The notes under the pieces were generated by a model that searched no databases, had not been told where the DNA came from, and worked only from the letters and a program-made list of their open reading frames with translations. The position numbers and the translations under genes are program-made. This document shows positions 6,643 through 59,800 of a stretch of DNA of 64,000 nt, in pieces. Numbering within the stretch: the stretch's first letter is position 1; the number at the start of each line of letters is the position of its first letter. Source of the stretch: Mugil cephalus (Eukaryota > Chordata > Actinopteri > Mugiliformes > Mugilidae); assembly GCF_022458985.1 (NCBI RefSeq), contig NC_061770.1:34701599-34765598 (forward strand). The letters run 5' to 3'.

Positions 6643-6644
6643 AT

Positions 6645-7050
6645 TTTGGATTTCTGCATCAGTTTGCACCTCCCCAGTGGTGACGCAGATCACAAGAGCT
6701 TCGATTGGTCCTCTTGGCAGTCGCATGTTTCCTCTTTAGTATTTGCGGTCGCTTCTCCATCTCCGCAATGTTCAAATCAATCAATAAAGATGGAACACAC
6801 GGAGGAAAGGTCAACCGAGGAGGTTCAAAAGGTACACGCATTTGTACGACTCGCGCTCGGCGAGAACTGGGCGAAGGTTTCGGTCGCCTGTTGAAAGTGC
6901 AGCAGGAAGTGGAAACAAATATGAACCCCACTGGCAAAGAAAAAAAAGACAGCGCCCACTAGTGTTTGCATGGTGTTGTGACAGGCGGAGCGCACAAGCA
7001 TAAATGTCTCACACTGGCGTAGGCTGGGCTAATGTAGGTTTACATAGATT
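6645..7050 (-). mobile_element. Interspersed repeat family D copy
   Basis: The segment shares blocks, in opposite orientation, with the copies at 925-1190 and 47280-47640: GTGCAGCAGGAAGTGGAAAC, CACTAGTGTTTGCATGGTG, a CATAAATGTCTCACACTGGCG-type end. The family includes a primer-like GAAACAGGAAGTAGAAAC motif. Short ORFs here do not look like a known transposase. The class is unknown to me. Confidence 0.6.
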
Positions 7051-30046: not shown

Positions 30047-32489
<2,443 letters not shown>

Positions 32490-34166: not shown

Positions 34167-37100
34167 ATGTGGAGCTTCTACCAAAACGGGCTTTTACCCG
34201 CAAAGAAGAAAGTAAGTGTTCAGTTTCATCAGCATTAATGAAAGAAATTTGACAAAATGGAGCAAATAACTGTTTTTTATAGTCGGAAGCTATAGAGAAT
34301 TAAAAAAAAGAACGACAATACAAACGTATATTGTCTAATTTGTCTCGAACCGTAACTCAAGTCTGGAGACTGAAAGTGTAGAGAACCATCAATCCATGTA
34401 AACGCGTAAAAGCTGGAAGCTATGACACTAAACCGAATAACTGTTTTCCTTTGATTTCGTTTCGCAGCAAACTAAAGAGACTCTGATACTCCCAGCGATA
34501 ACCAGCGGCCTCACTTCACAGTGTCAGGTGATATTTACAATCTGAATCCACTCATTCACTCATTAAATTGTCTGAAAAGAGGAAAAACAAAAGCACCGGA
34601 AGAGTTGTCTATAAATTAATCTAAACAACTATTAACAAACGAATCCTCCTTCGATAATCATCCAGTGCTCTGATAACAAGACCAGTTTAATTAACTACCT
34701 GACGAGCTCTTCATAAAAAGTGCCATTAATACACATGATTGACTTGTTTTGTAGAGGACAAAGGGACATAGCAACAAACCGACAGACGGATCCAGAACCA
34801 GAAATCACCTCAGGGTAAACCACTCTCAAGGCACGACCCAGAAGTTCTTCGATTTATTCATGAGTTAAACAATCTATCAATTTCTGCAGCTGGATTATCC
34901 CGTGTGTCAACCACAACTCAAACAAAATAAGCCCAAAATTCTTCCTCGTGGACAAGATGATGTTTTCTTACCAGGCAAAGTTGACTTTTTCAAGGTATGT
35001 TTATTTTATTATTGTTTTATAGAATAAGCTTAACTCAACTGACCTCCCAGACTTAATGTTGTTACTGTGGGCGACAGGTTAAGTCTGACAAGGCCTTGGT
35101 GGAGTCATGTGAGCGTGGAACTAGGAAGGAGTCCTCGTCAAAGTTACTGAGGAGCAATGAGGTGGACGAGAGACACGTCAACAAAACCTCTAATGCATAT
35201 TTAGGATTCAACAACGAGGACAAACTTCGTACTGGACTAGAAGAGAAAAGGTTCATGATCTACGTTTGTGGTGGATATAAAGGTAGGAATCAACAAACAT
35301 GACATAGTAGTTATAATAACACTGGGGGAAAAAATCATCTAAATTTCACTTTAAGTCTGACCTGAATATGAGTTACACCAGTCAGCCACAACATTATGAC
35401 CACTGACAGGAGTAAGAAAATAACATTTAAACCATCTTGTGACAGTTCAGTGTTGTGCTGGGAAACAAACTTTTGGACCTGGTATTCATTCATTGGGATG
35501 TTATTTAGACATGTAGCACCCACCTAGACGAGACCAGACACCCCCACTCCATAGCAATGACACTTCTTGATGGCAGTAGGATGTAGCCTGACACAAGCAC
35601 AAAAACTGTTCAGGAACAACTAAAAAAACTAGAAGAGCAGCACAAGGTGTTGATCTGGCCTCCAAATTCACTAGATCCCAAACTGATCAAGTATCTGTGA
35701 GATGTAACTTTGAGTTTTCTTTGTGTCAGACAGGAGTAATTAGGGCTGGGTGTCATTTAAAACATTTTGATGCCAGTACCGATACCAGTACCGATACCAG
35801 TAACCTTAAAATTATACCGATACCAATTGAGTACTACATTCGATATTAATCATGTGAATAGAAAGAAATCAGTTGTTTAAATTTCACCACTCCTCCCTAT
35901 TTAAAAGATTGTTGCCCAAATGCATTTTGAAAGTCTTCAAACTACTGAAAACTTTCTTTAATAACTACACAAACCTGTACAACAAATATTATAAGTATTA
36001 TTTGGGCTGTGTAATTGTCGACATCACAACCATGGACCAATATTTTCTAACCTCATCAAACATGGAGAATGTAGCCACTGACCAGTGAGTCATCCACATG
36101 TTTTACTTGTTAATTAGGTAGAAATTAGCGAGCAAGTTAGCGTTACCACACACAACTGCCTACTACAAGATGCCAAAAACAATTTTCTTAAAAATAAATG
36201 TAATACATTTTTTTTTCTAGATCTTGGTACAAAAACAACCGACTGAATAGGACCCAAAGACCCCCATGAACAACATTCATTAGACCCTCAGAAGGTCCAT
36301 GTCCATTCTCTGATGAAAAATCAGAAATAAATAAATGGAAATTGCCAATGCTAACACATTGCTTTAGCAGCTATTATCATGCCATATAGTAGTAGTGCAC
36401 AAATGCATGAGTAATACGTGAGAAGAAATTAGAGGATAGGCGCTCGGTGCAAGATTTCAACATCATGAGCAGCAACAATTCTTGCCACTGACATTGCGGC
36501 AGAAACTCATCTGTATAACATTGGTTTTGTATGTATGTGTGTGATTCAGACACAACTGCAGAGAGAAGTGCACTCGTGGAGGAAATTTATCCCAGACTGT
36601 ATCTGTACTGTAAGCAGCGTGGCTACGACTTCAGGATGGTTGACCTACGGGCAGGTGTTGGAAATCCTGCTTCCGAACGCCACGACACTGTAAAGCTGCA
36701 TGTGGAGAATCTCCAGCTGTGTCAGAAAACTCCAGGTCCAAACTTTATTGTAAGAGATTTACCATAAGAGAGCACAGTAATTCATTGATCTCCTAGCAAA
36801 AGAAGCATGGAGATACTCTAGTTCAAGAGATAAATAATGCCTCGTTGTCCTGGTCTGTTGGTCAGTTGTTTGTAGGACAGAAGTATGAGGTTCAGAGTCT
36901 TCCCTCAACTATCACCAGAGAAGCTTTCGAGGCTATAGTGAGAGCACTGGAGAGACACAGAGGAGAACAGATGTCCAAGATGAAACCTCAGGAAGAGTTT
37001 TCTGCCTCAGGCTCACGGTCCAGCATCACTACTACTCACAGGGACTCCAACAGTTTTGTCCAAGAATCCATTTATGGGAATTATCTGAATATTGGAGAAA

Positions 37101-40100
37101 ACGCCACAGGTTCAGAAATGCTGAGCCAGAGCTCTCGCAGCTCATTTTCTGATGAAGAAGAAGATGACCCTGGCCCACTTGGTGTGAAGAACCAAGAAGA
37201 TTTGGACAAAGACTTAACTCTACTGCGGTTGTGGTATAAGTTGGATGAGAACTTCTCTCCTCCTGTCTATGGGCTACTTCCCATCAGGTGAAAAACTTGC
37301 TGTTCAACATTTTAGTTTTCTGTTGTTCTGACATTTCCCAGGACCAGTAATACCTCATCTATAACAAGGGTTCACTGTCTGCAGAAGATGACTTTAACAA
37401 CCCCTTCCTGGTATGTCTTGCTGCCATTTACAGTACCCATTATCCTAACATGTCAAACATGGACAAGGAGGGCCAGAAGAAAGCCAGGAAGGACTGGAGC
37501 ACCACCTGCCAAAGGTTGTGGCGAGTTCTGCAATGCAGTGCTGTTGAGGCACTTGGTCAAGAGGAGGCATCACTGTTACTCAGGACAGGTAAGGTCTGGA
37601 AACTCAGTCAGATGCTTTAGGAACAACTTGTGGAGTTTATTGAAAACGTTTAATCTAAGTAGCTTCTTCGCTTCTAAAGACCTGGAGGCAAATATCTGGT
37701 CATTAACATAAAATAGTCAAGGAAATTTCTGATGGGCAACACCCACAGATGTCCTTATTTAAACCTCAGCTACCCTTAGAACTGAAGAAGCTACTCGGAT
37801 GAGCGGTAAAATGTCTTCAAGGAACTCTTCAAGAAAGTCCAGTTTCCTTTCTGTCACATTTTTGGATATGGCATGATCTGGAGAACTAAGAACCTTCACA
37901 GACATGAAGGCCCCAGTTCAATAAGTTTCTTGCTTGTTTCTATCATTTAAATCAACATAACAAGTTAAGAATTTTTCAGCTTAATTTAACGGGTTCTTGG
38001 TATTCCAACTTAAGGGCTTAATCCAGTTCAATGAAATTTAAATATCAATGTGTCCACCTAACTTGACTTGAATATGAGTTTTAAAATGGTAACTGGATCT
38101 CTCAAAGTTGAGTTAACTCAGTTTATCACACATTATTCATTATTATACAGGAAAGGATGTTACAATGCCTTGTGCCAAAATCCCAGATGAAACACATTTA
38201 GAAGTCGAGTCCAACTGAACAAACCATCAGCAGGCTAGCAGTCAGCTACTAGCTAGCAACTAGCAACCAAGAAGACTAAGACTACTCAGCTAGTCTTACC
38301 TTTAGCATGCTCCTCAGCTAGCATGTTTCCTCTTTAGCCACAGCCACTCACTTGCTCGCTCTGCTGCCAGGGACATGTTTAAAGTTGAGTTAACTCATGT
38401 ATTTAAGGCAGCTTTTGAACTTAAGTTTATAACAGTAGATTTGGAACAAAATGACTATTTTTTTTAATGCCTAGTTCTTGACTGGGAGGTGGAGACAGCT
38501 CTGCAGTCTGTACCGCCAGAGGAGCACTGCCACTGTTACAAAAGAGTGATCCCAGATCTTCATTACAACATGAAGAACCAACACGCAGCTCGATACGTCG
38601 ACCTCCTGAAGGGACAAGCGCGACTTGATCCAGTACTCAGCAAAGCGCACAAGTGTTTTGTTGACCGTCTCCATAAAAAGGTAGTTTCCATATTAGTACA
38701 TACATTGCACTATGGAGTGTTTGTTCCTGATAACATTTTAAGCTGTTCAAAAGGCTACTGATTTCTAGTTATCTAGCCTGCAAACTGGCAGAAAGAGTAT
38801 TCTCTCCCACGGTGAGGTGTTTGTTTGTTACTCCATGGTTTTCCACTAAAGTTTATTCCTTTAATTTTTGTGTCTGCACCAACAAGCTGCGTCACACCAA
38901 CATCTATGAGCGTAACGTGAGCTGGGGACGGAAAGGCCTGAACCCCAAACACAATCGGTCCCACCGTTTCTATACTGAGCGCATCTCCTCCCATTTCCAG
39001 CGGACTGTCATCAACTCCTTCAAAAAGTACTGCATTGACACATAGTGTAGAAGTAGTAAGTGAACAAATATCTCTGTGTTTCATTGACGACTAAGAGATT
39101 TTTGTGTGCACCTTTACCTCCCCAGCTTGATGAAGATCCCCAATACTCCAGGGCCCTATGATGTGGTGAGGAGAATCGAAGCCAGAGCACAGATACAGGA
39201 GGAGATACAGCGTCATGTTAACTATGGGCTCCACCTGTGAGTATCATCGCCTTTATTATCTGGTGTGCATAGAGTACAGTGACTTTAAATCAGCTTCAGC
39301 TTCAAGTAGTTTCGAAAACTGAATCAGAAACTATGTGCAGAATGGCAGCATTAAAACGTTTTTGATGGAATTTGTTTAATTTGACTGGCATATTGTGAAT
39401 ACAAAGTCTATTGGAAATTGTTCGAACAGTCTGGTATTGAGTGTAAATGCAGTTCCTTCTATAGTGTATCTCCAAAGTTCCAGCTCAAGTTTCTCTTCTT
39501 TTGTCAGGGAGAAAAACTATACTTTGAGGCAGCCGTTCTTAGCTGATGTACGAAGAGCAGTGGAGCAGCCAAGAGCCAGACCAACCCTCCTGTTGGGACC
39601 ACCAGGCTCAGGGAAGAGCACCACCATGGCTGCAGTAGCTCAGCTAGCACCGTCCTGGCTGCCTGGGTGAGATGCTCAAAGCATGTAGCTTTGAGATAAA
39701 TTAAATAGAGGTAGTAATGTATGAAACACATTTATTTTGTTTGGTCTCATTGATTCAGCGCTGCGAATGTGTTGTTGCACTTTATTGGCTTCACGGGAGA
39801 GAGTAGGAACATCCGTCTGGTCCTGCAGAGCCTTTGTGTTCAGCTGGTTGAAATCTACTGTCCTCACACACAACTGTCAGAGGTGCCTCATAAAAAAAAC
39901 AAAAAAAACAAGACTTTGTAACATCTCGCCTGACTGACAGGTATTTGGACAATTTGTACTGTTGAGATTTAAATGGTTGTTTTTTCTGTTTCAGGGCCTC
40001 CCTCAACTGGTCAATGAGTTTTACTCTCTGTTGGAGCTTGTGCCAGCAGAGAAGCCTCTAGTGGTCATTTTAGATGGATTAGATGAGCTGTCTGAGGAAC

Positions 40101-43100
40101 ATGGGCCTGACCTCTCTTGGATCTCAACACCGCTACCTCCAAATGTCCATCTCATTCTTTCCACAACTACTGACTCCCCGTGTGCTCAAGTTCTGCAGGT
40201 CAATAGAGTTGAACCGATAAACAGATGCCTCAAATGGCAGGACTACCTGTGCAGAGTGCAAGCAGTTATAAAGGGAGTTAATACCCTAAAATGTCCTATG
40301 GAATTATAAATATGCTAAAACCTAGACCTATAAATATGCCAATATTTCTTGCACTACATTGCATTTGATTACAACTTCTTCTCTTACATTCCCCCAGCAA
40401 TCAGCCCATTGTACGCTCCTGTCCATACCTCCTCTCACCCCTGATGACATCAAAAGAGCATTGAAGGCCAAGCTGAAGGCAGACCGGCGGCATCTGCAGG
40501 AACCTCAGTGGCAGGCGCTGTTCCAGGCTTGCATCTCTTGTCCCTGTCCTCTCTACCTGGAAGCCGCTTATTCCGAGAGCCTCTTGTGGACGTCCTACTC
40601 CTTCCAGAGTCTTCCTCCCAGCCTGGAGGACCTATACCTTAGTCTGCTCGCTCGCCTGGAGAGAGAACTGGGGAAACATCTGGTGAGACGAGCTGCATCT
40701 CTGATATCCATTTCACGTTGGGGTGTCACTGAAGAGGTGGGTAAAGCTACAGTTCCCTGAGCAAGCCCTAATTACATTCTTTTGTAGTGAGTATAATATT
40801 TGGAGTATTGGTACTTCAAGTCAATACATAGTAGGGTATCAGTCTTTTAGGTACAGGGGCAATTATGTTTCAAAGACTTGTTCAGTCCATGTTTGTCTCC
40901 ACCATCAGGAGTTACTGGACCTCCTGGCCAAAGATGGGAAGGTGCTCGAGGAAGTGATCTCTTCTCATCCATTCTCTAGCCACTCCAGGGTGCCTTACGT
41001 CTTGTGGGCTCGACTGAAACTTAACCTAGGTCACCACCTCACCGAGGTTAGGACAGATGGGACGTGGGTGTACCGCTGGACACACTCTAAACTGAGCCAC
41101 GTGTGCATGAATTACTATTTACAAAGGGACGACTCTCGGATGGCGCTGCACGCCGACTACGCTGACTACTACCGTGACAAATCACAACATGCACACATAT
41201 TTCAGCCACTTGCGTGGACATTGAATGAGAAAGGGGAAGGGGAAGGTACGTCTAAAAGTTTCAGGTTCAATCTGAGGAAGCTCCATGGGTTGCCCTACCA
41301 CCTGGTCCGCTCTGGCCAAATCCTGCCCTTCCTGTCTGATTGTGTTTTTAACTACGAGTTCCTGCTACATAAAGCCTGGGGTCTGTCTGTCCTGGACATA
41401 AAGGAGGACCTAAAGAAAGCCGTGCTATCAGAAAAGTAGGTGTTATCTTGTACTGCATACACCCATCAGGTAGTTCTTTGTTCTCTCTGTTGCGCCAGTT
41501 CATGCTATGAGCCTTCACCTGCCGTGTCCGTCGTTATCAAATGTACCTTCTCTTCCTAGGGTACTGGTGGATGTGGAGATTCTGTCAGGTGCTCTGGAAA
41601 TGTCCCAGCAAGTGCTGCAACAGGACCCCTGCCAGCTGGCCTCCCAGCTCATGGGTCGACTGGGGCAAATGATTATTGAGGACCGGCCAGTTGCTAAAGG
41701 TATTGACAGAGTCTGCATCGAAATCGCTTTGAGAAGGACCGAACAAAAACAAAAAGTGTACAAAAAGACAAGCTGATGTCTGTTTTGGGTCTTTGTCTGT
41801 TAGATGTTCTACCAAGAACCTTTTTTCTTCTCTTTCATAATTTTTTTCTCCGCTTACGAAATTACAATTCCATAGCATGACTTAACGTAAATTGAAACAA
41901 CATATTATAACGTAGTAACATGACATCAAATGATACTGACGTGACCGTATATGGTATAAATATGGACGGCAGAACTGCTCCTCAAAAGTGAAACCAAAGC
42001 AAATAGAGCTCCCCCTGGTGGCTGGAGGCTGCAGTATAGGTCATAAGCTCCACCCCCTCCATGTTAGTGGGTGGGACTTGCGCTGAACCAAAACCATGCC
42101 AACAGGTCTGTAAAGTGGTCCCATGGGACCATGAGAGTTCAGGGTATAATTAAACATTTTCTTGTAACTGGCGGAGGTAGAATGGAGGTGGAACAGAGTA
42201 TTAATTTAATTAAAACCTGAGTGAATCTGGAGGAAGTGTGGGCGGGGCATCGATATCATGGCACATGACTCCACCTTTGGACCCTACTGATCAGACTCTG
42301 GCTCCAAAGTCACAAGACGGTACCGCCCATATCCCTGTGAAAATACTGTCAGTACAGCCAAGAAAATGGGGGCACATTGTCCATATTTATATACAGTCTA
42401 TAGATGTGACATTAAATAATATAACCATAACAGAACATATTATAACAAGACATGACTTGATCTATAATTATCTGCTTCTTTAACAAGCCGTGTGTCTGAC
42501 ACAGGTGACCCACGAAAGTTTAGCTACCTGCACGATCTTCTGGCTCAGTGTACCCAGTCGTCCCTCCCGGTGTTGCTACCCTCCTCCACATGCTTACTAT
42601 CCCCAGTAGTAAGGCCCCAACACACCCTTCTCGCAGGTGACCCATCCCCACGTGTACTGAATACACACACTAGTTAGTTAGTTACTGGAAGCATGTCCTA
42701 TACCTAAATAATGAAACATTTATTATTGTTGACTAGGTCACTTGACCAATGTGACTGCTCTGGGAGGGGGCCAAAGAGGTACCTTGGCTGTCACCAGTGA
42801 AGCAAATGGATGTTTGAGGTTCTGGGATCTGGAGCAGAGGCGTATAATCATGAGCCTAAATGCAGAAGGGGGGATTGTGGGAGACTACCTCACCCTCGGT
42901 CTGGACGACAGGATGCTCATAGTCCGCCAGAGACAGAGTCTACAGGTTGGATTCATTTTATTTCACTCCTAATCTGACCTCTCTGAGCAACATATAAGTA
43001 GGCGTAGGTTTGTTTTATGGGAAAAATGAGACATAATACCTTAGCGTGAAAGAGCGTGATTTGTGTCTGTGTTTCAGGTGAGAGAGAGGGAATCTGGACG

Positions 43101-46100
43101 AGTTGTGTATTCAGAGAACGACTCCGTGGACGTTCCTATTGTCACTACAACCTGTGAAGGACAACTCCTGGTCGTCTTCTACGATGGAAGTCATCGAGTC
43201 AAGGTTGTATACATAATAAATATATAATATACTGCTAAAGCAATGATTTTCAGCTGGGAGTCTATGGATCCCAAGTGGAATAATTGGTGGTGTAATTGCA
43301 AAGGGGTCCAGGAAAATAAAATATCCTTTGAAAAAAGATCATATGACAGGATTTTTTTTACTCTAATTACATCTGTTTCCAAGAGCAATTTACTGTGTTC
43401 TATTAAGAGATCTAGCTCCCTGTTGTTGTTCAAAGTTACTGCATGGCGCTGTTAATACAAAGTTAACACAATATGCATCCGTTTCAAATTATGAGGCCCC
43501 TACTGTTTCAGTGGGTATACACCATTCATTTCTTAGTAATGCTCTTATTGTGAAACATCTGCAGGAAGGTGTTAAATTGCATTGTTCAGGTTAGCACTCG
43601 AAATTAAGCTAATGCTACAAACAAACAAAGAAGAAGATGATAAGCACAGATATCTAAGAACCCTGATGGGGTTCCTCAGCGTAGGTCCTGGACCCCAGTA
43701 AGGTTGAGAACCACCTATTAAAGGTGGAGGAGTTACCCATCAGAAACTCACAATATTAGTGTCTGTTAACGACTAAATACTCGCTTTAGAACTGTAGAAG
43801 TTTTCTTTTACATTTTTGGAAAAAAATAGGTTGCAACTACTGAATATGCATCTTTGTCGTGTTTGCTAGGTTTTTGACCTGGACACCTCCTGCTCTCTGC
43901 TGCACAGTGTTAACGTTTCCATGGAACCTGAGGCCGTCCACGAAGACCGCTCCATTCTGCTGTCCAGCTGCTCCATCAGAGACTACGTCCTGTTTGCCTA
44001 CAGGTCAGACAGCATCAGTTTAAACCCAGGTTAAAGTCACTAATATGGCTGGGATATACACTGATCAGCTTCTCCACTGACAGGAGAAGTAAATATCATT
44101 TAAACCATCTTTTGACAATTCAGTGTTCTGCTGGGAAACATTTGAACCTGAGATTCATTCACGTGGATGTAGCACCCACCTACACCAGACTAGTCGTCCC
44201 CACCCCATATAACCAAAAAAAATGGTTTCTCATAGGCCCCTCCCACTGCAGAATATATCCTAAGCATTATGGGAGATACAGGAGATGCAGCCACACACAG
44301 TATGAAGATCTCAACCCAGGAGAGATTGTCACACTGTGAATATCAGCATCTGGTAGCTCACAGAGCATTTTCACTAGCAGCTAGCATTCCACTTTTCAGA
44401 ATTAACCACAGCCACTTTCTGACCAATCACAGAATAGTTGCTGGACGCCACACAAGAAAAACGTTCATCCTGGCTAGTCAAACTCCCAAACGAGGACTGC
44501 CCTAGAAATGAGAACCAATTTCTTGCTTCTTGTTGAGCATGTAACAGCCCATGGGACCTATAAAGACCCCTCCCCTCAACTCATACGACCCAAAAAGACC
44601 CCTCCCCTCAACATATAGGACCCAAAGGCCCCTCCCCTCAACATATGGGACCCAAAGGCCCCTCCCCTCAACCCATGGGACCCAAAAAGACCCCTCCCCT
44701 CAACCTATAGGACCAAAAAAGACCCCTCCCCTCAACATATAGGACCCAAAGGCCCCTCCCCTCAACCCGTAGGACCAAAAAAGACCCCTCCCTTCAACAT
44801 ATAGGACCCAAAGGCCCCTCCCCTCAACTCATACGACCCAAAGGCCCCTCCCCTCAACCCGTAGGACCAAAAAAGACCCCTCCCTTCAACATATAGGACC
44901 CAAAGGCCCCTCCCATCAACCCAAAGGACCCAAAGGCCACTCCCCTCAACTCATATGACCCAAAGGCCCCTCCCCTCAACCCATAGGACCCAAAGGCCAC
45001 TCCCCTCAACTCATACGACCCAAAGGCACCTCCCCTCAACCCATAGGACCCAAAGGCCACTCCCCTCAACTCATACGACCCAAAGGCCCCTCCCCTCAAC
45101 CCATAGCACCCAAAGACCCCTCCCCTCAATGTATAGGACCCTAAGGTTTTAAGGATACATTGTGATAATATTAAATTTGAAATTTGACACGTTAGGCAGG
45201 TTCTTTTTTTCAGATTCTAATTCATCACAAAGCCCCACGAACTGGATGTGTGACTGGTTTCAGATTCAACGAGCCCAAACATGCAGCCAGAATCCTTAAT
45301 GGCATCCTGATCGCAATGTCATGTAGTTGGTCTGGGATTACATGAGGAGACAGTGGACACTGGAACAACACCCCCACCCCCTCCTCATCCCCAGTTACTA
45401 GAATCTCCATCAGAGGCCGGTTTAGGTCGTACAATGTGAAATCCTGAGTGACCTCACCGGCCTCGCATCCATTATGCACGAGTCACAAGTGTCCTCGTTC
45501 TTAAATAATATCACACGCACCTTCTGTTTACAAGCCTCCGTGGTTTCTACACAGCGTGGCCAGCGACTGTGAATTATTGAGACAGGTCACCACTGCCGTG
45601 TCTCACCGGCGTAACGCTGCCCATGCTCCTGTCGCATCAACAAGTAATGAGTGACACTCAAGACGATTAGCGCTGGAATTACGGCAGGATAATGGGAGCT
45701 ATTTTCTGTATTCTCTTACTGCCCGTTTGAGATTGAATTAAAAGCAGCGGCGTGGACGCCCTGAGAGTAATTAGCGTCAAAGAAACACCTGACAGGGAGG
45801 TGTCAGATACTCAGAAAACTAGGTCAGCGGTGTTTGCTGGTAATAGAAGACAGCACAGGTCCAGGATGATGGAGACTATCTGCACAGTTGAATCACTTTT
45901 AAATCAGATTTCTTCTTCTCTTTTCTTTTGAGGTCTGGTGGCGAGGCGGCAGTATTCGGCGCCAGGGGGGGCGCTGTGCTGTCTGTCCTGTCTGCACAGC
46001 GCGATGCGGCCTCCATCCAAGCTGTGGAGATGACTGAAGATTACCTGCTGCTCTTCTGCAGGTAACACCTCAATTACACTGTAGGCTACGGGCTTCTTGG

Positions 46101-49100
46101 ATTTAAAAACATTCGACCACCTTCCCTTGTGCCTCCAAAACAGTTGTGACTCATCAGAGAATGGACATGGATCTTCTGAAGGTGTCCTGAATGTTGTTAG
46201 TGGGGGTCTTTGGGTCCTATGGGTTGAGGGGAGGGGTCTCTATGGTGGATCATCCCACAGATACTTGATCAGTTCTAGTGAATTTGGAGGTCAGGTCAAC
46301 ACCTCGTGCTATTCTTCCTTGTTCCTAAAGTGTTTTTATGTGCATTCTGCTGGGGATGTCTGCTGCAAACCATCAAGGAGGGTCATTGCTATGGGGTGGG
46401 GGGGTCTGGTCTGGTCTAGGTGGGGGCTACATGTCTAAGTAACATCAACATGAATAAATGCCAGGTCCAAAAGTCTCCCAGGAGAACACTGAATTGTCAC
46501 AAGATGGTTTAAAAGAAGGCCAAGGACCCAAGGAGAGATTAAGTAGGTTATATATTTATAAATATATATTATTATTATTATCATCATTATGCATTAAATA
46601 TCCCCTGTACCTTTACTAAAACATTTTGGATTCATGTTGATGTGTAAATTTGTGGGGGAAAATTGAAATATATATATAAAAAATGGCTAATCAACCAAAG
46701 ATTTAGCAAAACCCCCTGAAGTACCTCCCTGGACCCTCTAGGGATCGCAGACCCCCTGTTGAAGACCAATGGTTTAAAACGTTATTTACTTCTCTTGTCA
46801 GTGGTCATAATGTTGTGGCTGATCCGTGTATGTGTATACCTCGTTCCAGATACCCGCACAAAGGAGGCGGTGGAATCATCCACATCGAGCTCTTCAGCGC
46901 CTCCACCTTCGCGTACCTGCGCTCCGTACTGGGCTGCGGTCAGGACTCCATCACCTGGGTTACCGTCAACCGCGAAGGCTCTCACGCCGTTGCCTTCTGC
47001 TCCTCCCTTCACACCGGCCTCACCGAGCTGGTCACCTGGAACCTGGAGACCGAGGACCACAAGCACCTCGCTCGCTTCCCCGCGGTGCTCACTCAAGGTT
47101 GTTCTGGCATCTAGTTGATAGTTTGGAGGAAAACCAAAAACACAACAGCAAAGTTTGTAAGGAATAGACTGTGTGTTTGTGTTTAGTGTAAGTCGCTAGC
47201 ATTAGCATTAGCTTTCTAGGTTATGAGCTACAAGGTGGTGTGAGCATTTAGAGCAGTGGTGTCAAATTTAAGGCTCTTATATGTAGCCTACACGCCGGTG
47301 TGAGACATTTATACTTGTACCTCATCAGTCTGGCTCACTCTGTAATAACACCACCCAAGCACTAGTTGGCGCTGGTTAATTTTTGTTCCTACTTCCTGAT
47401 TCACTTTCAACAATTTCGACCGAAACTTTTCCAGAAATTTCACCAAAGTCGCGCAACTGTTTATGTCTCCAAACCTCCTCCATCTTTATTGATCCAAAAA
47501 AAACAATTCAAAAGCAGATAGAAATACTAAAGTGGAAACATGCTGCTACCAAGCGGACCACGTAAACGACCCATTACGGCCCGTTAGCCAAAACCGTCCA
47601 ACCAGAGGGTCCAATCTGTTGAAGTGTGAAAATTACACAGAAGACATTAACTTAATTAGTTTCTCAATAAAACTAACTGCTATTCTTATTTCGTCCACTA
47701 GGGGGCATTGTACATCAAATGTTTCTGTAAAAGTATACTTCATTAAATGTAAACATTTCTGTAATTTAACTTCTTTGCTCTAAAACTACGTTGTATGTGG
47801 CCCCTAAACTAAAATGAGTTTGACACCTATCAATCAATTAATTTTCCTACTACAGTAGCCAGTCTAAAAAGGTCCCAATCACACATCCACCTGTCACATC
47901 GGTCTACTTTTGAGGAATTAATGCAGCCTTTAAAATGTCCTTCTGCTTCAGGGCTGTGTTTTGATCTGCGCTTCTGCCTGGGAATCAGTAGCGGAGAGAA
48001 GTACCTCCACCTCTGGGATCTTTCCTCCTGCATCAGCGACCCGTCTCTCACCTATAACACACATAAACCCAGACGTGACGGCACACGGGAGATCGTACCA
48101 GTGGGGAAATCTCCACGGTATGTACAGATGTATGTGTTAGAGATTAGATTAGACAGGGTTTAGCTGCCTTATCTTACAGAGTGAACATTGTGATGGGAAG
48201 TGACTAAGATCACATCTTATCGTTCATCTCATAGAAGAGAATAGGGTACAGCATAGCATAGCATGTCATTGAATAGAATAGCTTAGCATAGCTAAGTATA
48301 GAATAAAATAGAATAGAATAGAATTGAATTGAATACCAAAAATAGCATAGCATAGCATAGCATAGAATAGCATAGCATAGATTGCAGATAACAGAGCTGG
48401 AAACCCTACTATGCAACTGAACTAAGTAATAGCATAGCATAGCATTGAATAGATACCTTAGCATAGCTGAGTACAGAATAAAACAGAATAGAATAGTGAA
48501 CAATTGCCAAGCATAGCATAGGGTATAGCATAGCATAGCATGGCATTGAAAAGAATAGCTTAGCATAACCAAGTATAGAATAGAACAGAATAGAATAGAA
48601 TAGAATAGAATAGAATAGAATACCAAACAATAGCATAGCATAGGTTGCAGATACATGAGCTGAATACACTACCATGCCATCTGAGTTAAGTAATAGCATA
48701 GCATAGCATTGAATTGAACAGCTTAGCGTAGCTAAGTATAGAATAAAATAGAATAGAATACCAAAGAGTAGCATAGCATAGCATAGCATAGCATAGCATG
48801 GGTTGCAGATAACAGAGCTGATCATCATTATTATGATGCCTGTTATAGAATCTCATATAGTGGGATTGATGTCATTACTAAAGCAAGAAACAATTCAAAA
48901 TGTCTCCTCTGACTCACTGCACCCCACAGCACATACATCAAATCCAGCAGAAGCTACAATTTCGGCCCAATAAAATGGCAAAACATATACATAAACAATG
49001 TAAATATCATAGATTTTACTCACCAGAACTTCAGAAACAATGAGTTCCCATCATAGTTGCCGACTTGTTTTACCCTTTACCCCAGCTTGGTCAGGCTAGC

Positions 49101-52100
49101 TAGCTCTGGGCTTGGGCTGCCTTTCCTCACAATATCCATCTTTTCCTTCATAGATCAATGCCGTAAAATGTCTTTCTAAGAAGACCTGCAATCAAATCCA
49201 TAGCCTTTCTGGTTTCCACCAACGTGGGTTCAACAAGTAGCTGTCAAAACGTTAGCGGGGATGATTTGGTTGTGCAGCTCACAACAGATGAACATGAACC
49301 GCTAGCTTGGCTAAGAAGGAATATGAAATAATTTAATAAGATTAATGGGAAAATATTCAGAAGTAAGTCAGTGATTTTGATAAAGTTTGGCTTTTGTTGG
49401 CCTACTGGGTGATATGCATGGTGTCTTTTTTAAATCCATTTTTACGCAGATGAGACTCACATCTACCTCCCTTTTAACAGACATGGGAACCCTGAGTCAG
49501 GCTAGCTAGCTCCAGGGTGGGGCGACCTGTCCTCACAATGTCCAACTTTGCTGATCTTGTTTGACTTTTATAACTTAGAATCTGCAATATTAAGAGTACT
49601 CAGTGGAGCATATATTTCTATAATTTCTAATTCTCTAGTAGTCTGGTTTTATTGTGTGTATGTTGGCTCCATAAATATAGCTTTGCCCCATGCTCTAATT
49701 AATATTCTTCCCCCCAGTGCGCTACTCTGTGGCAAACTGAGGGGAAGAGGTCCCCTATGGTGGATATTTATGTAGTGATGGCGCCCTCTGGTGGCAGGTA
49801 CGCCGTGTGCCTCTCCGTCAGACCTGGGACGGTGTTCGTGTGGAACCTGGCCAGACGTCGCTTCCTCCACCGGCCGGTCAGAGTGGAGCACGGCCTCTAC
49901 AGCAGCACCGACGTAGCGCTCGCCCACGGCTTCAAACTTTACATCCTCACAGACAGAAGCAACAACAGCGGCACGGTCGGTTATCGGTTCCAGGTGAGAC
50001 ATTTTTTTTGTTTTCTGATTAATCTGTTCTCTTCAAAGCACAGGATTGAAATTTAACTATGCCTGTTGTTTTTGCCCCAGACTCTGCTGGTGTACGATCT
50101 GATCAAGCGGAGCTATGTGGGAAGACGGACAGGGATTGCAGTCGTGCCCTGTCTACAGCATGAATACCGTCTCCTGGAGGACGGACGGACTCTTCTGGGT
50201 CTGTCGGAGGACAGGTGAAGCTTTACCTATTGGGGCGCTTGGCGTAGATTTTCAGGGGGTCTGATGGATTTCAAGACTAGAACCTTGAACCACTCAGGTC
50301 GAACCCCTAAAGTGATATGATGACCAAATAGGAAACATGGTAAATCATGCCACAAGGAATCTTTAGAGCATACGACATATATAGTATAATAAGTTTAAAC
50401 CAGGACTTAAACTAGTGTTAAGCTAATTTGATACTGAACTTACAGTTTTGGACAGATTTTATCACTTTACCCTCTTAAAATAAAGAAGTAATAAGTAATA
50501 GATTAGACTAGAATAGAACGGTACTACTATGATACAATACTGCTATACTATCTGAGTTAGCATAGCATAGCATAGCTTAGCACTGATTTGAATAGAATGG
50601 CGTGGCACAGCACAGCATTGAATCGAATATCTTAGCATAGCTAAGTACAGAATAAAGTAGAATACAATAACACAAACAGCATAGCATAGCATAGTATAGC
50701 ATAGCTGGGCACACTACTATACTATCTGAGTTAAGTAATAGCATTGCATAGCATTGATTTGAATAGAATGGCATAGCATAGCACTGAATTGAATAGCTTA
50801 ACATAGCTAAGTATAGAATAGAATAGAATAGCTAAGTATAGAATAGAATAGAATAGAATAGAATAGAATAGAATAGAATAGAATAGAATAGAATAGAATA
50901 GAATAGAATGCTGAAAAAAAGCATAGCTTAGCTTGGGTTGTAGATAACAGAGCTGGATGCACTCTTATGCTATCTGTGTTAAGTGATGGCATAATATAGG
51001 ATAGCATAGCATAGCACAAAATAGCATAGCATAGAATAGAATAGAATAAAATAGTACAGCATAGCATAGCATAAGATAGCATAGCATAGCATAGCATAGA
51101 ATAGCATAGGATAGAATAGAATAGAATAGAATAGGCTGCAGATAACATACACACTGTTCTCCTATGCGACTTGGCACAACATAGGATAACATAGAATACT
51201 ATAGCATAGCATAGCATAGCATATACAATAGATTAGTATTGTTTAGAAGTACTTTGTGCGTGATTTTTTCTTTACATTTATTCAAACTGTAGCGACATTG
51301 TAGAAGAGTTTGTGAACTGAAACAGGTGACATGTTACCATGGTTACCTTGATGTTTTCACACTGACCTTAACAAACACACTCCCAGAAGAACGTCTCAGT
51401 GGAACTTGGTCCGTTGCAGAGATGGTCTGATCCTGTGGAATCTGGACTCCGGCTCCATCAGACATGAGATCAAGCCGCCCCCCAGAGAGAGGAGGAGGAG
51501 CAGGAGGAGGAGCAGGAGGAGGAGCAGGAGGAGGAGCAGGAGCCCCGTCCAGGACCTGACAACATGTGACGGCCTCTTCTTTACACTCCTGTTTCTAAAC
51601 ATGTTCCCGTGGAGACTTTTAGACCGATATGAAACTCAAGTTAGTTCATATTAATGAGTTAAAGGTCCTCAGTTTAGTTCTTATTAATTAATTAAAGGTC
51701 CTCAGTTTAGTTTTTATTAATTAAAGGTCCTCAGTTTAGTTCTAATTAGTTAGTTAAAGGTCCTCAGTTTAGTTCTTATTAATTAATTAAAGGTCCTCAG
51801 TTTAGTTCTTATTAATTAATTAAAGGTCCTCAGTTTAGTTTTTATTAATTAAAGGTCCTCAGTTTAGTTCTAATTAGTTAGTTAAAGGTCCTCAGTTTAG
51901 TTCTTATTAGTTAGTTAAAGGTCCTCAGTTTAGTTCTTATTAATGAGTTAAAGGTCCTCAGTTTAGTTCTTATTAATTAAAGGTCCTCAGTTTAGTTCCT
52001 ATTAATTAATTAAAGGTCCTCAGTTTAGTTCATATTAATTAAAGGTCCTCAGTTTAGTTCCTAATAATTAGTTAAAGGTCCTCAGTTTAGTTCTTATTAA

Positions 52101-54036
52101 TGAGTTAAAGGTCCTCAGTTTAGTTCTTATTAATTAATTAAAGGTCCTCAGTTTAGTTTAAATTAATTAAAGGTCCTCAGTTTAGTTCTTATTAATTAAA
52201 GGTCCTCAGTTTAGTTCTAATTAATTAGTTAAAGGTCCTCAGTTTAGTTCTAATTAGTTAATTAAAGGTCCTCAGTTTAGTTCTTATTAGTTAAAGGTCC
52301 TCAGTTTAGTTCTTATTAATTAAAGGTCCTCAGTTGAGTTCTTATTAATGAGTTAAAGGTCCTCAGTTTAGTTTTTATTAATTAGTTAAAGGTCCTCAGT
52401 TTAGTTCTAATTAATTAAAGGTCCTCAGTTTAGTTCTAATTAGTTAAAGGTCCTCAGTTTAGTTCTAATTAGTTAATTAAAGGTCCTCAGTTTCGTTCTT
52501 ATTAATTAAAGGTCCTCAATTTAGTTCTGATTAATTAATTAAAGGTCCTCAGTTTAGTTCTTATTAATTAAAGGTCCTCAGTTTAGTTCTTATTAATTAG
52601 TTAAAGGTCCTCAGTTTATTTGTTGTTGTTGAAAAAGGCTCATTTTACAGGTTTCTCTATATTTATTCATTCATTCATTCATTCATTCATTCTGTATCTG
52701 TCTGTCTATCTTAATTTTCTTTATTTCTTTCTTCATTCATTGTTTCTGTCTTTGTTCTTCATCATTGTGTCAGTGATGCCGTGGGAGGTTCGTGCTGAGA
52801 GTAGTTCTGCTAAAAAGACGAGGAGGAAGGAGGAGGAGGAGGAGGAGGAGGAGAAGGAGGATGAGGAGGAGAAGGAGGAGGAGGAGGCGAGTGTGGCCAG
52901 AGAGGAGTTTAACTCTATAGACCAGTATCTTCTGAGTGGAGACCATCAGGTGAGATGATGAAACTCCTTCATCGTTTCTTGGTCCTGGACGTTCACGGCG
53001 TTGACCTCTGGCTCTGCTTGTGTTCCAGGTCGTAGTCTGCTCCTACTTCGCCCACCACCTCCACGTCTTCAGCCTGGCGTCCCGCGAACACGTCCACGTC
53101 CTGGAGGACGGGACGTCCCTGCTGGACCTCCGTCCTGCAGCTCTGACCCACAGCGGTGGACACCTGGTGCTGAGCAGCTACGACCAGGACCAGAGGACGT
53201 CCTGGGTCACACTGTGGGACCTGAGAGGAGGGACGGTGGGACGGGACTATTACCTGGGCCTCAGTCTGGGCCACACAGTATAAATATAAATACAGTATAA
53301 ATATAGTGTAAATATAATATAAATATAATATAAACATAGTATAATGTCTATAAACTGATTATATTATAAACATAGTATATATGTCTATATAACTGATTTC
53401 ATTATTTTATTTCATATTATTATTTTCCATCTTCTCTGTGTCTTTCTTTTTTCTTTCTTTTCCATCATTCATTATTTTTCCATCATTCTTTCCTTCTTCT
53501 CTTCTTTCTTCTTCTTTTCTTTCTCTTCTTTTCCTCAGTTCTTTCCATACCTTCTTCTTTTTCATCATTCTTTCCATTCTTTGTTTCTTTCTAACTTCCA
53601 TTTCTCTTCTTTGTTTCTTTAATTCTTCTCCAATTCTTCTTTCTTTCTTTTCATTCTTATCCCTTCATTTTTCATTTCTTTCCTTATCCTTCTTTCTTTT
53701 CCTTTCATTTTCTTTCTTTCTTTTCTTTCTTTCTTTCTTTCTTTCTTTCCCTTATCCACCATTCTTTCATTTTTCCATCCATTCTTTCTATCTTTCATTT
53801 TCTTTCTTTCTTTAATTCTTTCCACAATTCTTTCTTTTTTAATCGCTCATTTCATTCAATCTTCGTTCCTCCATTTCTTTCTTCTTCTTCTTTTCTTTCT
53901 TCCCTTTTCTTCATTCGCCATCCATTTTTCTCCATCATTCATTCGTTCCATCTTTCTAACTTCTTCCCTCTTTCCTCTTTCATTCTGTCTTTTATCCTTT
54001 GTTCTGTCCGTGGTTTGTTGTTATTGAGTCTTATTG

Positions 54037-54075
<39 letters not shown>

Positions 54076-54702
54076 CTGCTGGCAGGTTGTGCGGAGGCTG
54101 AGGGACGAGGCTGGACTTTGTTGCGTGGACGTGACGGAGGACGCAGACAGAGTCGTCTTCGGGGTCGTCGGGGGGAACAGGTGAACATCGTAAAAACATC
54201 TGCAGTAGTTACCACTGTTACCTCGGGTTCATTCCCTGTGTTTGCTCCTGAAGCCTGAAGCTGTGGGAGCCTTTCAACACAACCTGCATCTGCATCGTCG
54301 GCTACGGGACGCTGAGTCTGGACGTGTCCTCTCAAGTCCACGTGACGGAGGGCGGAGCCAGAGCCTTCCTGCTGTCAGGTGGGACCTCGTCATGAAGACG
54401 TTGCGGAGACTCCAGGCGTTAGACTGAGCCCGTGTCTGTCCTCAGGTTGTTCTAATGGCCGGGGTCAGATCAGCCTCTGGGACCTGGACGCCTGCAGCGT
54501 CCTCTCCGTGGTCTCCCTGGACGCGCACGTCCGCTGCTCTGAGCTGCTCGGTGGACGCGAGGGACCCGTCCTGCTCGGCCTCAGCCACGGCCCGGCCCTC
54601 ATCACCGTTGGGTCCACGACGTCCGGGACGGACAACGTCTCCGAGGACCTGTTTGGAGAGTCCAGCAGCAGCGAGGACGAAGACGGAGACGCCCAGGTCT
54701 AG
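34167..54702 (+). CDS. NACHT and WD-repeat protein, NWD1/NWD2 family
   Basis: Thirty-two coding exons join with all phases matching: 34167-34211, 34468-34527, 34755-34814, 34890-34994, 35078-35282, 36550-36749, 36866-37287, 37434-37588, 38475-38680, 38887-39026, 39126-39236, 39508-39666, 39759-39882, 39995-40198, 40398-40736, 40909-41435, 41560-41699, 42505-42636, 42737-42945, 43078-43203, 43870-44003, 45933-46061, 46850-47097, 47952-48117, 49798-49993, 50081-50214, 51387-51565, 52774-52949, 53029-53235, 54086-54180, 54254-54378, 54446-54702. This is 1904 residues (human NWD2, as I recall, about 1740). Order: basic N-terminus (1-147); DUF4062-like segment (FMIYV, DTTAER, VDLRAGVG, about 148-366, ending WYKLDEN); P-loop GPPGSGKST (600-608); Walker B PLVVILDGLDEL (685-696); winged-helix-like GVTEEELLDLL; WD repeats from about 1068; acidic Ser-rich tail. 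The family are STAND ATPases; the ligand is unknown. The start, the end of exon 27 and the end of exon 29 (53235 or 53280, both in frame) are least certain. Confidence 0.88.
35380..35712 (+). mobile_element. MITE-like element, family A, in intron 5 of the NACHT-WD gene
   Basis: Left end CAGTCAGCCACAACATTATG followed by ACCACTGACAGGAG, then the family interior up to CCCAAACTGATCAAGTATCTG. The missing right part (AGGACCCAAAGACCCCCATG, CATGTCCATTCTCTGATGAA) appears at about 36248-36320, beyond another inserted element, so the copy was split. Confidence 0.8.
35745..36230 (+). mobile_element. GATACC-rich element splitting a family A copy
   Basis: TAGGGCTGGGTGTCATTTAA, then CAGTACCGATACCAGTACCG and ATTATACCGATACCAATTG form a typical left end of a short inverted-repeat element related to that at 25550-26155. 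It lies between the two halves of a MITE family A copy and so inserted later. The right end is not clear. Confidence 0.55.
39508..40198 (+). other. NTPase core exons 12-14 of the NACHT-WD gene
   Basis: Exon 12 (39508-39666) carries the P-loop GPPGSGKST at 39596-39622. Exon 13 (39759-39882) encodes VLLHFIGFTGESRNIRLVLQ, which occupies the position of the VVIRFLGTT-type strand in NWD2. Exon 14 (39995-40198) carries Walker B, hydrophobic strand then DGLDEL, and an LPPNVHLILST strand matching the family's sensor-1 region. All residues expected for nucleotide binding (Lys and Ser/Thr of the P-loop, Asp pair of Walker B) are present, so the ATPase should be functional. Confidence 0.9.
41950..42405 (+). 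mobile_element. Interspersed element, family C, in intron 17
   Basis: GGTATAAATATGGACGGCAG opens the copy; CCCCCTGGTGGCTGGAGGCT and GACCATGAGAGTTCAGGG-type blocks are internal; the right end CATATTTATATACAGTCTAT mirrors the left end of the 31567 copy. It is non-coding. Confidence 0.75.
44058..45150 (+). repeat. 30-bp minisatellite grown from a family A MITE
   Basis: A family A left half lies at 44058-44215 (CTCCACTGACAGGAGAAG, AAACCATCTTTTGACAATTC). From 44552 to 45145 about 20 copies of a 30-bp unit follow, pattern GGACCCAAAGGCCCCTCCCC TCAACCCATA. The unit matches a single-copy block inside other family A elements (CCATAGAGACCCCTCCCCTC, AACACATAGGACCCA; compare 46205-46240 and 55645-55675). 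It therefore arose by local amplification inside the element, within intron 21. Confidence 0.85.
45160..45930. other. Intron 21 remainder, repeat-free
   Basis: About 750 bp with no recognised repeats; GC-moderate, with several TAATTA and GACAGG motifs (for example GAGTAATTAGCG and GACAGGGAGGTGTCAG). It may contain regulatory sequence but no exon is seen; the next exon begins at 45933. Confidence 0.4.
46120..46830 (-). mobile_element. MITE family A with a nested family E insertion, in intron 22
   Basis: Family A runs in reverse from about 46120 (CAGAGAATGGACATGGATC) to 46504 and resumes at 46780 (GTTATTTACTTCTCTTGTCAG, GGTCATAATGTTGTGGCTGA). Between them a family E element (46515-46769) ends TGTTGAAGACC. 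TGGTTTAAAA occurs at 46505-46514 and at 46770-46779, the target-site duplication of the nested insertion. The outer element ends at about 46830, only 19 bp before the acceptor of exon 23. Confidence 0.85.
47270..47640 (+). mobile_element. Interspersed repeat family D copy in intron 23
   Basis: GTGTGAGACATTTATACTTG, CTGGCTCACTCTGTAATAAC, CACTAGTTGGCGCTGG and CTACTTCCTGATTCACTTTC match the copy at 925-1190 in the same order. No coding potential. Confidence 0.65.
48240..48815 (-). repeat. Pentamer array (ATAGC / ATAGA) in intron 24
   Basis: Mixed runs of AGCAT and AGAAT pentamers with embedded pieces such as GTTGCAGATAACAGAGCTG that recur every roughly 190 bp (about 48380, 48645, 48802), so the array has a higher-order unit. 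Minus-strand ORFs rich in Tyr, Leu, Cys, Phe and Ile over it come from the repeat. Confidence 0.9.
48816..49797. other. Intron 24 remainder
   Basis: AT-rich, no exon accepted. An open frame joins the start of exon 25 from about 49700 (after CCCCCCAG), but using that acceptor would not match the phase left by exon 24; the acceptor at 49797 does. Confidence 0.5.
50475..51240 (-). repeat. Pentamer array (ATAGC / ATAGA) in intron 26
   Basis: Same pentamers and the same embedded GTTGTAGATAACAGAGCTG and ATACTATCTGAGTTAAGTAA pieces as the intron 24 array. A pure (AGAAT)n stretch lies at about 50818-50910. The two arrays bracket exons 25 and 26. Confidence 0.9.
51486..52890 (+). other. Arg/Ser-repeat and poly-Glu exons (27 and 28)
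   Basis: Exon 27, after the blade end LILWNLDS, contains an AGGAGGAGGAGC microsatellite (about 51491-51541) read as RRRS four times, residues about 1594-1611. Exon 28 contains a GAGGAGGAG/AAG tract (about 52829-52890) read as 19 acidic-rich residues, about 1638-1656, after SSSAKKTRRK. A basic and an acidic low-complexity stretch are thus separated by about 27 residues, in what should be a loop between WD blades. The donor of exon 27 is weak (ACAACAT|GTGACG at 51565/51566) but is the one I found that gives the phase exon 28 needs. Confidence 0.7.
51655..52620 (+). repeat. Minisatellite of about 30 bp in intron 27
   Basis: About 30 copies of a unit with the constant core AAAGGTCCTCAGTTTAGTTC and a variable AT part (TTATTAATTAATT, TAATTAGTTAGTT, etc.). 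Unit length alternates between about 28 and 35 bp because the TAATTA part expands and contracts. The core hardly varies over nearly 1 kb, suggesting recent growth or homogenisation. Confidence 0.95.
53395..53965 (+). repeat. Long pyrimidine-rich tract in intron 29
   Basis: About 570 bp of almost only C and T on the plus strand, with TTTCTTTC and TTCATTC motifs, including pure (CTTT)n near 53715-53748. It resembles a decayed (CTTT)n microsatellite. A purine/pyrimidine bias this long can form triplex DNA. Confidence 0.9.
54039..54073 (+). repeat. (GT)n microsatellite just before exon 30
   Basis: About seventeen GT units end some 12 bp before the GGCAG acceptor of exon 30 (54086). The (GT)n therefore takes the place of the polypyrimidine tract. 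Confidence 0.9.
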
Positions 54703-56857: not shown

Positions 56858-59800
56858 CTACCTGGACCGGCGCTCTTTTCTGTTCTTGTCTAGGCTTTTG
56901 TCCATGGTCTTTTCGTTGTCTCCTCGACACTTGGGGCAGTACCACTTGCCCTTGGGCTTGTAGGTGAGCCCCACGCAGGAGAAGTGGAACCACTCGATGG
57001 GGCACTGGTCGTTGTCGCAGCCGATCATCTCGCCGTAGGACACCTGCTCGCAGAGGCAGTAGGTGGGCTCGTTGGGGTCGATGGCGAAGTCGACGGGCGA
57101 GGCGTCCCGCTCCTGCTTGGCCTTGCGCTTCTTCTTCTTCGCCGACTTCGACTTCTTCTCCCGGGGCGGCGGCAGGGACAGCTCCTCCACGGCGTCGTCC
57201 ACCAGGGAGCCGTTGGCGGACGCGTGGCTGGAGTCGCGGCTCTCGCTGTTGCGCTGGCGCCGCGGCCGCCGGGTGGAGGCGCGCTCGGGCGCCGGGAGCT
57301 CCTGGTGGACGCTGGAGCGGCGCTCCGGGGGGAGGCGCTCGGCCTCGCTGGGCTCCTGCAGGCACAGGGAGTGGGAGTCCATCTGCCGGGAGCGGTTCTC
57401 CACCAGCTCCGTCATCTGGGTCACCACGTGGATCTTCTCGTCGCCCAGCTCCTGGCTGAGGATGAGCGCCCTCTGCAGCTGGATCTGGAGGCGCTTCCTC
57501 TGGGCCGCATCCTGCTCGCCTTTGTACTTCTCAAACACTTCATCCACCTCCTTTAGCACCTCTGAAAAGGAGCAGAATACACAGATAAGCACTACCGGTC
57601 AAAAACACTCCTTTGTTTTATTGAAATGTATGCAGTTCAATGTCTCATTTTACTCTGAAATGTAACCCCTAACCCCTATATAGGGCTCCATATAGGGGTT
57701 AGGCCATTGTGTAGGTAGGTGTGCCCAAACCTTAGTGATTAAATCCTAAGCCCTACGTAGGGGTCTCAAAATTTCCCATAAAGCATTGTGAAAAGTAGTG
57801 ACCATCCAATGGTCTGGTGCGGTGTTGGGATCGAGTTCAATATAAGGTAGCACCCTACATAGGGAATAGGGGTTAGTGAGTGAAGGCACAGTTTCGGACA
57901 AAGAGTTGGAATTCTTTCTTTCTGAAACGGAAATCAAATATTTTCCAGAGAGTTTTTCTCAATTTTGTTGCAGAAGTTCACAGAAATGTGTGGCATTTGT
58001 AGGGAGCTTTCCAGTTCATCATCACAAACCAGCTCCATTGGGTTAAAGTCTAGAGACTGGGCCATGGTCCACTCCATGTTTTCAAGCTTTCCATCTTGTT
58101 TTTATCCTCAGGTAGTTCTGGTGTAGCTAAAGGTTTGGGTCATTATCTTGCTGTAGGTTGAAGCCCTGACCAACTATAACAGAGGATCCTGGTGCTGTTC
58201 TAAAACTTTGGACCAGTAGTGCATTAATAGTTCCTGCACAAATTTCTTTTATATCCATTTACCAATGTAAATGTATGGGCTAGAGATCGACTGATATATG
58301 GGGCCGATATGTGCGTTTTTTACTGGTATCGGCCGATACGTAGCTGCTTACCCCCCCTCAGTATCGGCTGATACTAATACCAGTCCCCAAAAAATCTGTA
58401 TTGGTCGATCTCTAGTATGGTCACTACCGGCTGTTTTAATATACAGACAGATACTTCAGTGTCCAGTAGCACAGTTTCACCGTCCTATGTCCTGACAGAC
58501 AAACGTCCTCCTCAACCTGTCAGCTTCTCTGTCCGACTATGGATTTGTGTAGAAGGTGGTGGACATTGTTCAGCAAGGACCGGAAGTCCTTCCATCTACT
58601 ACTGATGTCGGGGACTCCAGTTCTGTCCCTACCACAGAGTCCACCTTCCTTCTGTATCAGTTTGTCCAGTCGTGAGGTTCATCCCCAGGTCACCACTGGC
58701 GACGACAGTCTGGTAGAACATTTTTTTTGTAAACTGAGTCCATGTTAGCCGATCAGTCCAGTTTGTGATCTAGATGCGGACCCAGGTTCTTCTAGGTCTG
58801 AAGCACCTCTACCCACTCCCCGTTGATGGTCACGGGTTGCAGGTGGGGCTTGGACTAGAAATCAACTGATGTATCAGTATCGGCCAACACGCAAGTCCGT
58901 TCGCTGATGGTCGCTGCGGACCATGCAGCCCATACATCGCCCCTCCCCCACTAACAGACTGCGCGTATCCATAAAAAAAAAAAAAATGTTTATGTTTTCG
59001 GTTCAACTTATACTTGCAACATTTGTTATCATTGTGCAATTTTTATCATGTAAATGACGGGAGAGAAAAAAAAAACCGTATCGGCTCAAAAATATCGGAT
59101 CGGAAAAACCGGCAGCACGTATCGGCCAATGCTGATGTAAAAGCATAAAATAAAATAAAAAAATAAATAAATGCATGAGCTGTATGTGCAAGGCTGCTTG
59201 ACTGAGATCCTGCTGAAGTGAAACTGGAGTTGTCAGGAGTGGAAGTGGAGGAGGAGGAGGAGGAGGAGGCTGGGCCGCAGTACATTCCTGCCTACAGGAG
59301 ATGACGCCAGTCCTATGGTGAGAGGGGGTTGCCTACAAGAGAGGGGATATCTGGCTCTGCAGTTCACACTCGATGGAGCAGAGAGGGGTCGGCAGGCAGC
59401 GTCTCAACCCTCAGCTGCGGATGGTGGACTTCTACACGAAGCAACAATGAAGACTTGCTTTATTTGCATTTATTTATTTATTTATTTTCTGTGCCTATAA
59501 GTGTAGGGGTTTCGTTAACAAACAGTCTCTGCAGCCTTGCCTTCCCTCATCCCTGGTCCCAGCCGTATCAACAACGGACCCCCGAGCTAAATATCTCACA
59601 AACAACATGTATATATTTTTGTATATCCTGGTTTCGGTGCACTTCTCCTCCTGTGCAGATTCCTGCAACAGCTAAACAGGCGACGCTGCATGTTTACCAT
59701 GAACCAAGAGGTTCACACATGCATCAGCACTAGTACCAAGCGTATTCCATGTTACTGAGGCTTAATGCGTTTCTCATTTAACGCATAACCCTTGTTTGTT

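Follow-up and report, generated by a model that had tools for sequence, protein, structure and literature searches.

NWD-type proteins and their relatives

The closest described systems are NWD1, NWD2, and TEP1. NWD1 and NWD2 are counted among the conserved vertebrate NLRs in a paper on the round goby, which names no third member in the part available (PMC6988351). In C. elegans, QUI-1 and T05C3.2 are described as NACHT/WD40 proteins, the first as an orthologue of NWD1 and the second as nearest to NWD2, and the NWD family is thus older than the vertebrates (PMC8871372). Human NWD1 is located at 19p13.11 (PMC4039239).

DUF4062 is described as a TIR-like NADase domain that is active in human TEP1; purified human NWD1, NWD2, and NPHP3 are reported to be inactive on NAD+ (PMC13174449). 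The same account proposes an APAF1-like autoinhibited switch for this architecture.

A third vertebrate NWD gene was not found in the open-licence PMC literature, at least among the matches listed, judged by titles and the starts of abstracts. By the same parts of the papers, a search there for 'NWD3' with NACHT gave fungal papers only. Among the matches listed for rwdd4, ing2, and synteny, no title concerned the gene described here. Genome databases may well annotate it already as NWD1- or NWD2-like.

Position of the gene

The gene lies in the window, the whole 64,000-nucleotide stretch of Mugil cephalus DNA that was analysed. An earlier sequence-only reading placed it between rwdd4 and ing2, and the flanking genes bear this out. 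Upstream is an RWD-domain gene (30047-32487; RWD E 2.5e-23), whose exon reading is off by one base towards the end; we take it to be rwdd4, following the earlier reading. Downstream, on the minus strand, is the ING-PHD gene ing2 (ING E 1e-11, PHD E 3.6e-5), with a last exon that lies within 56858-57598 and ends in a stop. Elsewhere in the window, positions 6430-6894 hold a 154-codon open frame with a Redoxin match (E 0.0011, below cut-off).

In human, RWDD4 and ING2 are neighbours at 4q35, with a gap of about 130 kb between them. The gene may have been lost in mammals. A human focal-deletion table, which may be non-exhaustive, gives ING2, C4orf41, and RWDD4A for 4q35.1 (PMC7137242), and an 'ING2/RWDD4' intergenic site is named in human (PMC7015923). 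As far as these two entries go, they fit the absence of such a gene at the human locus.

Gene structure

The gene is composed of 32 exons on the forward strand, from 34167 to 54702 (Table 1). Start and stop codons are those of the sequence-only reading, and there is no internal stop. The 1904 residues claimed there were not recovered: the rebuilt protein has 1932 or 1921 residues (coding sequence of 5799 or 5766 nucleotides), depending on the acceptor chosen for exon 27. The second in-frame acceptor of this exon gives the better WD40 sequence, SEDR/DGLILWNL, and the 1921-residue protein.

Exons and splice sites were picked by eye for an open frame, and the chain was then checked by script. An open frame is in itself little proof, as the choice of sites and frame aimed at openness. 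All 31 introns are GT-AG. The mean donor score is 4.6, against 2.2 for 1203 GTs of the locus, and the acceptor pyrimidine fraction is 0.69, against 0.47 for 1505 AGs. The donor or acceptor value was reached in 0 of 10000 resamples, which is not an unbiased test because picking by eye favours good-looking sites. GC content and codon usage add to the signal; GC is 0.54 in the exons versus 0.38 in the introns.

Of the 32 exons, 22 have their best coding score in the used frame, and in 30 the score of that frame exceeds zero. It is 0.43-0.91 over the last ten, with the used frame best in nine and other frames also above zero. Exons 1-4 (residues 1-90) score only -0.23 to 0.23, and the N-terminus is therefore uncertain; translation could instead begin at Met150, which adjoins the TIR-like domain. 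Homology runs in collinear order as far as residue 1174.

The junction of exons 24 and 25 is weak. The best-looking donor, CCACG/gtatgt (after 48117), and the best-looking acceptor, ccccag/TGCGC (before 49718), differ in phase, and joining them leads to an early stop. An open frame requires either a weak donor (after 48121, two of seven consensus matches) or a weak acceptor (before 49750). This junction leaves room for a damaged gene.

Several introns are repetitive. Intron 21 holds a long tandem array in which a 30-base unit is repeated about 19 times (44562-45146), and intron 27 another, with a 33-base unit in about 31 copies (51641-52618). Introns 24 and 26 both have ATAGC/ATAGA pentamer-type repeats (48223-48835 and 50483-51225).

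Table 1. Exons of the NWD-type gene, in window coordinates; a slash marks an exon junction.
Exon	Positions	Strand	Content and remarks
1	34167..34211	+	start codon, N-terminal extension; weak coding score
2	34468..34527	+	weak coding score
3	34755..34814	+	weak coding score
4	34890..34994	+	weak coding score
5	35078..35282	+	exon end falls in first strand of DUF4062-like domain; intron in phase 1, splitting Asp codon of D..ER
6	36550..36749	+	DUF4062/TIR-like core; phase-0 intron after GPNFI
7	36866..37287	+	TIR-like domain ends here, E247 being the aligned catalytic Glu; Ser-rich insert; WYKLDEN motif
8	37434..37588	+	acceptor after tttacag keeps frame: LLPI/STHYPN
9	38475..38680	+	
10	38887..39026	+	pre-NACHT region
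11	39126..39236	+	
12	39508..39666	+	Walker A GPPGSGKST
13	39759..39882	+	NACHT
14	39995..40198	+	NACHT Walker B VVILDGLDE
15	40398..40736	+	NACHT end / winged helix start
16	40909..41435	+	NWD1-type winged helix, then helical region
17	41560..41699	+	
18	42505..42636	+	
19	42737..42945	+	first WD40-like repeats; WD40-type matches in 1105-1238, below curated cut-offs
20	43078..43203	+	WD40-like
21	43870..44003	+	WD40-like
22	45933..46061	+	
23	46850..47097	+	
24	47952..48121	+	two candidate donors: a strong one in the other phase after 48117, a weak one after 48121
25	49718..49993	+	acceptor uncertain; alternative start 49750
26	50081..50214	+	
27	51387..51565	+	alternative in-frame start 51420; Arg/Ser-rich repeats
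28	52774..52949	+	Glu/Lys-rich repeats
29	53029..53235	+	second WD40-like region; WDR75 propeller model E 0.0016, below cut-off
30	54086..54180	+	
31	54254..54378	+	
32	54446..54702	+	stop codon TAG

Related loci in the same genome

Three parts of the protein, namely its N-terminal half, its NACHT, and its winged-helix part, served as queries against the genome (634,849,253 bases in 24 contigs). At least three further NWD-type loci were found, at C1:44.90-44.94 Mb, C9:15.35 Mb, and C6:28.68 Mb; the count is a lower bound because the search scores best candidates only. The sequence-only reading had proposed a third NWD-type paralogue. It is very likely a separate paralogue, but not the third, as this is at least the fourth NWD-type locus here. 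A candidate at C10:22717850-22718242 was excluded (E 0.64, two stops).

The C1 locus contains an nwd2-like gene (C1:44904081-44908001) on the same chromosome as the window gene. From its sequence and from the giant last exon typical of nwd2, we take it to be nwd2. The C9 locus (C9:15349215-15357790) is a second nwd2-like gene, with a last exon frame of 1068 codons and Gln at the aligned catalytic Glu. The C6 locus (C6:28674042-28679000) is most likely nwd1; a peptidase M3 gene lies near it. Of two TRIC loci and three Sin3 loci found in the genome, one each is on C6; these lie 12 and 25 Mb from the NWD-type locus and thus show linkage, not adjacency. TMEM38A and SIN3B are neighbours of human NWD1. 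Some downstream exon sequence of the C6 locus may be concealed by a run of N within it (C6:28679054-28679782).

The winged-helix family PF25469 is matched three times in the genome, at C1:44.9 Mb, at C9, and in the window gene. A DUF4062 profile search of the genome found only C7:8.35 Mb, a tep1-type locus (C7:8347928-8348170).

Domains of the protein

Both nucleotide-binding motifs are intact, as first read: Walker A is GPPGSGKST (600-608) and Walker B is VVILDGLDE. The NACHT domain occupies residues 594-755 (Pfam E 5.7e-12, above the curated cut-off). It is followed at 816-918 by a winged helix of the NWD1 type (HTH_NWD1; E 3.4e-13, 50 bits against a cut-off of 27). The Pfam scan gave 20 families at E up to 1, among which TROVE is absent. 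The Pfam DUF4062 profile has no match to the protein, and the TIR-like region aligns with those of nwd2 (38% identity), the C6 gene (31%), the C9 gene (26%), and tep1 (26%). The protein appears to carry a diverged DUF4062-like (TIR-like) domain. A PDB search with about residues 150-1105 gave only 13 weak P-loop-type matches, the best at E 0.072.

WD40-type Pfam matches have E values of 3.4e-5 to 0.07 when the protein is scanned whole and of 0.0016 to 0.95 when it is scanned in pieces, all below curated cut-offs. The position of the C-terminal half, its WD/WN dipeptides, and these weak matches suggest a propeller fold. A 348-residue piece of this half has six matches in the genome, all six at the window locus. 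Compared with nwd2 and C9 by hhalign, the WD40 half gave E 0.25 for the whole array and 0.14 and 0.2 for its halves, against 0.023-0.83 for eight shuffles. A first hhalign run had suggested collinearity with nwd2 (E 7e-16 over 911 columns). The printed alignment, together with a repeat run confined to the WD40 part, traced this signal to the winged-helix and helical part, and the collinearity was rejected.

Comparison with nwd2, the probable nwd1, and tep1

The window gene shares with nwd2 the order of putative TIR-like, NACHT, winged-helix, and putative WD40 regions, along with two introns. The last exon frame of nwd2 has 1307 codons and a phase-0 intron sits just after Walker A; the C9 gene is built likewise. 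In contrast, the window gene has 18 exons after the Walker B exon, its post-Walker A intron lies elsewhere and is in phase 2, and the WD40 half of nwd2 cannot be aligned with its protein. The C6 gene, probably NWD1, arranges N-terminal domain, pre-NACHT, and NACHT as the window gene does and has both common introns, but its pre-NACHT and NACHT form one 468-codon open frame and it has Gln at the aligned catalytic position. TEP1 likewise has a TIR-like DUF4062 domain ahead of a P-loop ATPase; the window protein differs in having no TROVE match.

Both common introns lie at the same aligned codon and in the same phase in the window, nwd2, C9, and C6 genes. One, in phase 1, splits the Asp codon of D..ER; the other, in phase 0, follows GP.F. 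Both are absent from the tep1-type exon. The nwd2, C9, and C6 genes have in common a further intron, ahead of VDL, that is missing from the window gene, which thus has two of the three introns compared in the TIR-like region.

From the TIR-like domain to the winged helix, identity to the window protein is 27.3% for nwd2 (717 columns), 29.0% for C9, 28.2% for C6 (517 columns), and 29.9% for tep1 (187 columns only). By blastp, the window protein matches nwd2 over 627-1174 (E 5e-30 or 2e-29, by direction) and the C6 exon at E 4e-22. The resemblance to NWD2 and NWD1 first noted holds for about residues 150-1174 at most; the WD40 half is no closer to nwd2 or C9 than shuffles are.

The tree alignment consists of exon pieces joined by eye (window 763 residues, nwd2 807, C9 804, C6 562, tep1 206). 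In the best tree, nwd2 and C9 form a pair with an ultrafast bootstrap of 99, and so do C6 and tep1 with 85; because of the latter pair it shows no single NWD clade. The AU test at 0.05 rejected 12 of 15 topologies. All three survivors keep nwd2 with C9 and place the window gene alone, with C6, or with tep1; of the three topologies that pair it with C6, one survives (AU p 0.174). Each of the six topologies that pair the window gene with nwd2 or C9 was rejected, including all three with nwd2 (AU p at most 0.03). On this genome's loci, then, the check for NWD2 orthology does not place the gene inside nwd2. With an nwd2-like gene at another place on the chromosome and the pairings rejected, the window gene is not nwd2. 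From the 27-29% identity to the NWD-type proteins, the common introns, and the rejected pairings, we judge it to be a distinct NWD lineage of deep origin, which makes at least four in this genome.

Aligned catalytic positions of the TIR-like domain

The TIR-like domain of human TEP1 is in the PDB (11gz_A), and the fish tep1-type sequence matches it at E 6e-38. The published TEP1 residues R908, R954, R976, and E1008 (PMC13174449) were set on 11gz_A; a single offset places the first three on Arg and the fourth on Glu, which makes E1008 the second Glu of TEME. Glu247 of the window protein (AFEAI) was aligned to E1008 by hand and without gaps through nwd2 (AEFEMI); the five-sequence alignment leaves the TEP1 motif out of line with AFEAI, and a direct alignment to TEP1 needs a choice of gap. 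The aligned catalytic position is Glu in the window protein and nwd2 and Gln in C9 and C6. By alignment, the positions of R908 and R976 are Lys in the window protein.

Discussion

We consider it very likely that the window gene is a protein-coding NWD-family STAND gene, a deep paralogue separate from the nwd2, C9, and C6 genes. It might instead be the fish nwd1 orthologue itself, with the C6 gene as the extra paralogue. Sisterhood with C6 or tep1 survives the AU test, and the winged-helix model named for NWD1 matches the window protein and was not found in the modelled part of C6, close to which is a run of N. The surroundings speak against this: C6 has TRIC, Sin3, and peptidase M3 genes, and human NWD1, at 19p13.11, has TMEM38A and SIN3B as neighbours, whereas the human counterparts of rwdd4 and ing2 are at 4q35. 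The human entries cited above (PMC7137242, PMC7015923) agree with the 4q35 position. Orthology to nwd1 is therefore quite unlikely. Decay into a pseudogene, or a break at exons 24 and 25, has in its favour the phase clash between the strongest donor and acceptor and the high divergence of the WD40 half. The remaining exons are nevertheless open, the last ten score well in the used frame, and the 348-residue piece of the WD40 half has no second copy in the genome that could take over; we regard decay as very unlikely.

The paralogue would most likely be an autoinhibited STAND switch. By analogy with the family, the C-terminal WD40-like array and the winged helix would hold the NACHT ATPase closed. 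A ligand on the propellers would open it, ATP would bind, and the protein would oligomerise, bringing the N-terminal DUF4062/TIR-like domains together. The gathered domains would act as a scaffold, the role left to those of NWD1 and NWD2 if inactive as NADases; cleavage of NAD in the manner of TEP1 is the less likely alternative. An active NADase, which would make the protein a TEP1-like or SARM1-like executioner, is suggested by the Glu aligned to E1008, kept in the window protein and nwd2 where C9 and C6 have Gln. That alignment, however, runs through nwd2 as a bridge, and human NWD2 is itself reported inactive on NAD+ (PMC13174449). Moreover, Arg residues that support TEP1 activity are Lys in the window protein. 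Activity is unlikely, and the domain is more probably a scaffold than an enzyme.

The boldest proposal, and a long shot, is that this fourth NWD lineage dates back to the split of NWD1 and NWD2, was retained between rwdd4 and ing2 in fish but lost in mammals, and has a TIR-like domain that would cleave NAD+ on activation. If true, vertebrates would have another DUF4062 NADase sensor in addition to TEP1.

Little is understood about the human STAND ATPases NWD1 and NWD2. An additional deep paralogue in a fish suggests that the vertebrate NWD family was once larger than the human set, and the window gene can be compared in the light of the newly drawn connection of DUF4062 domains with NAD+ cleavage.
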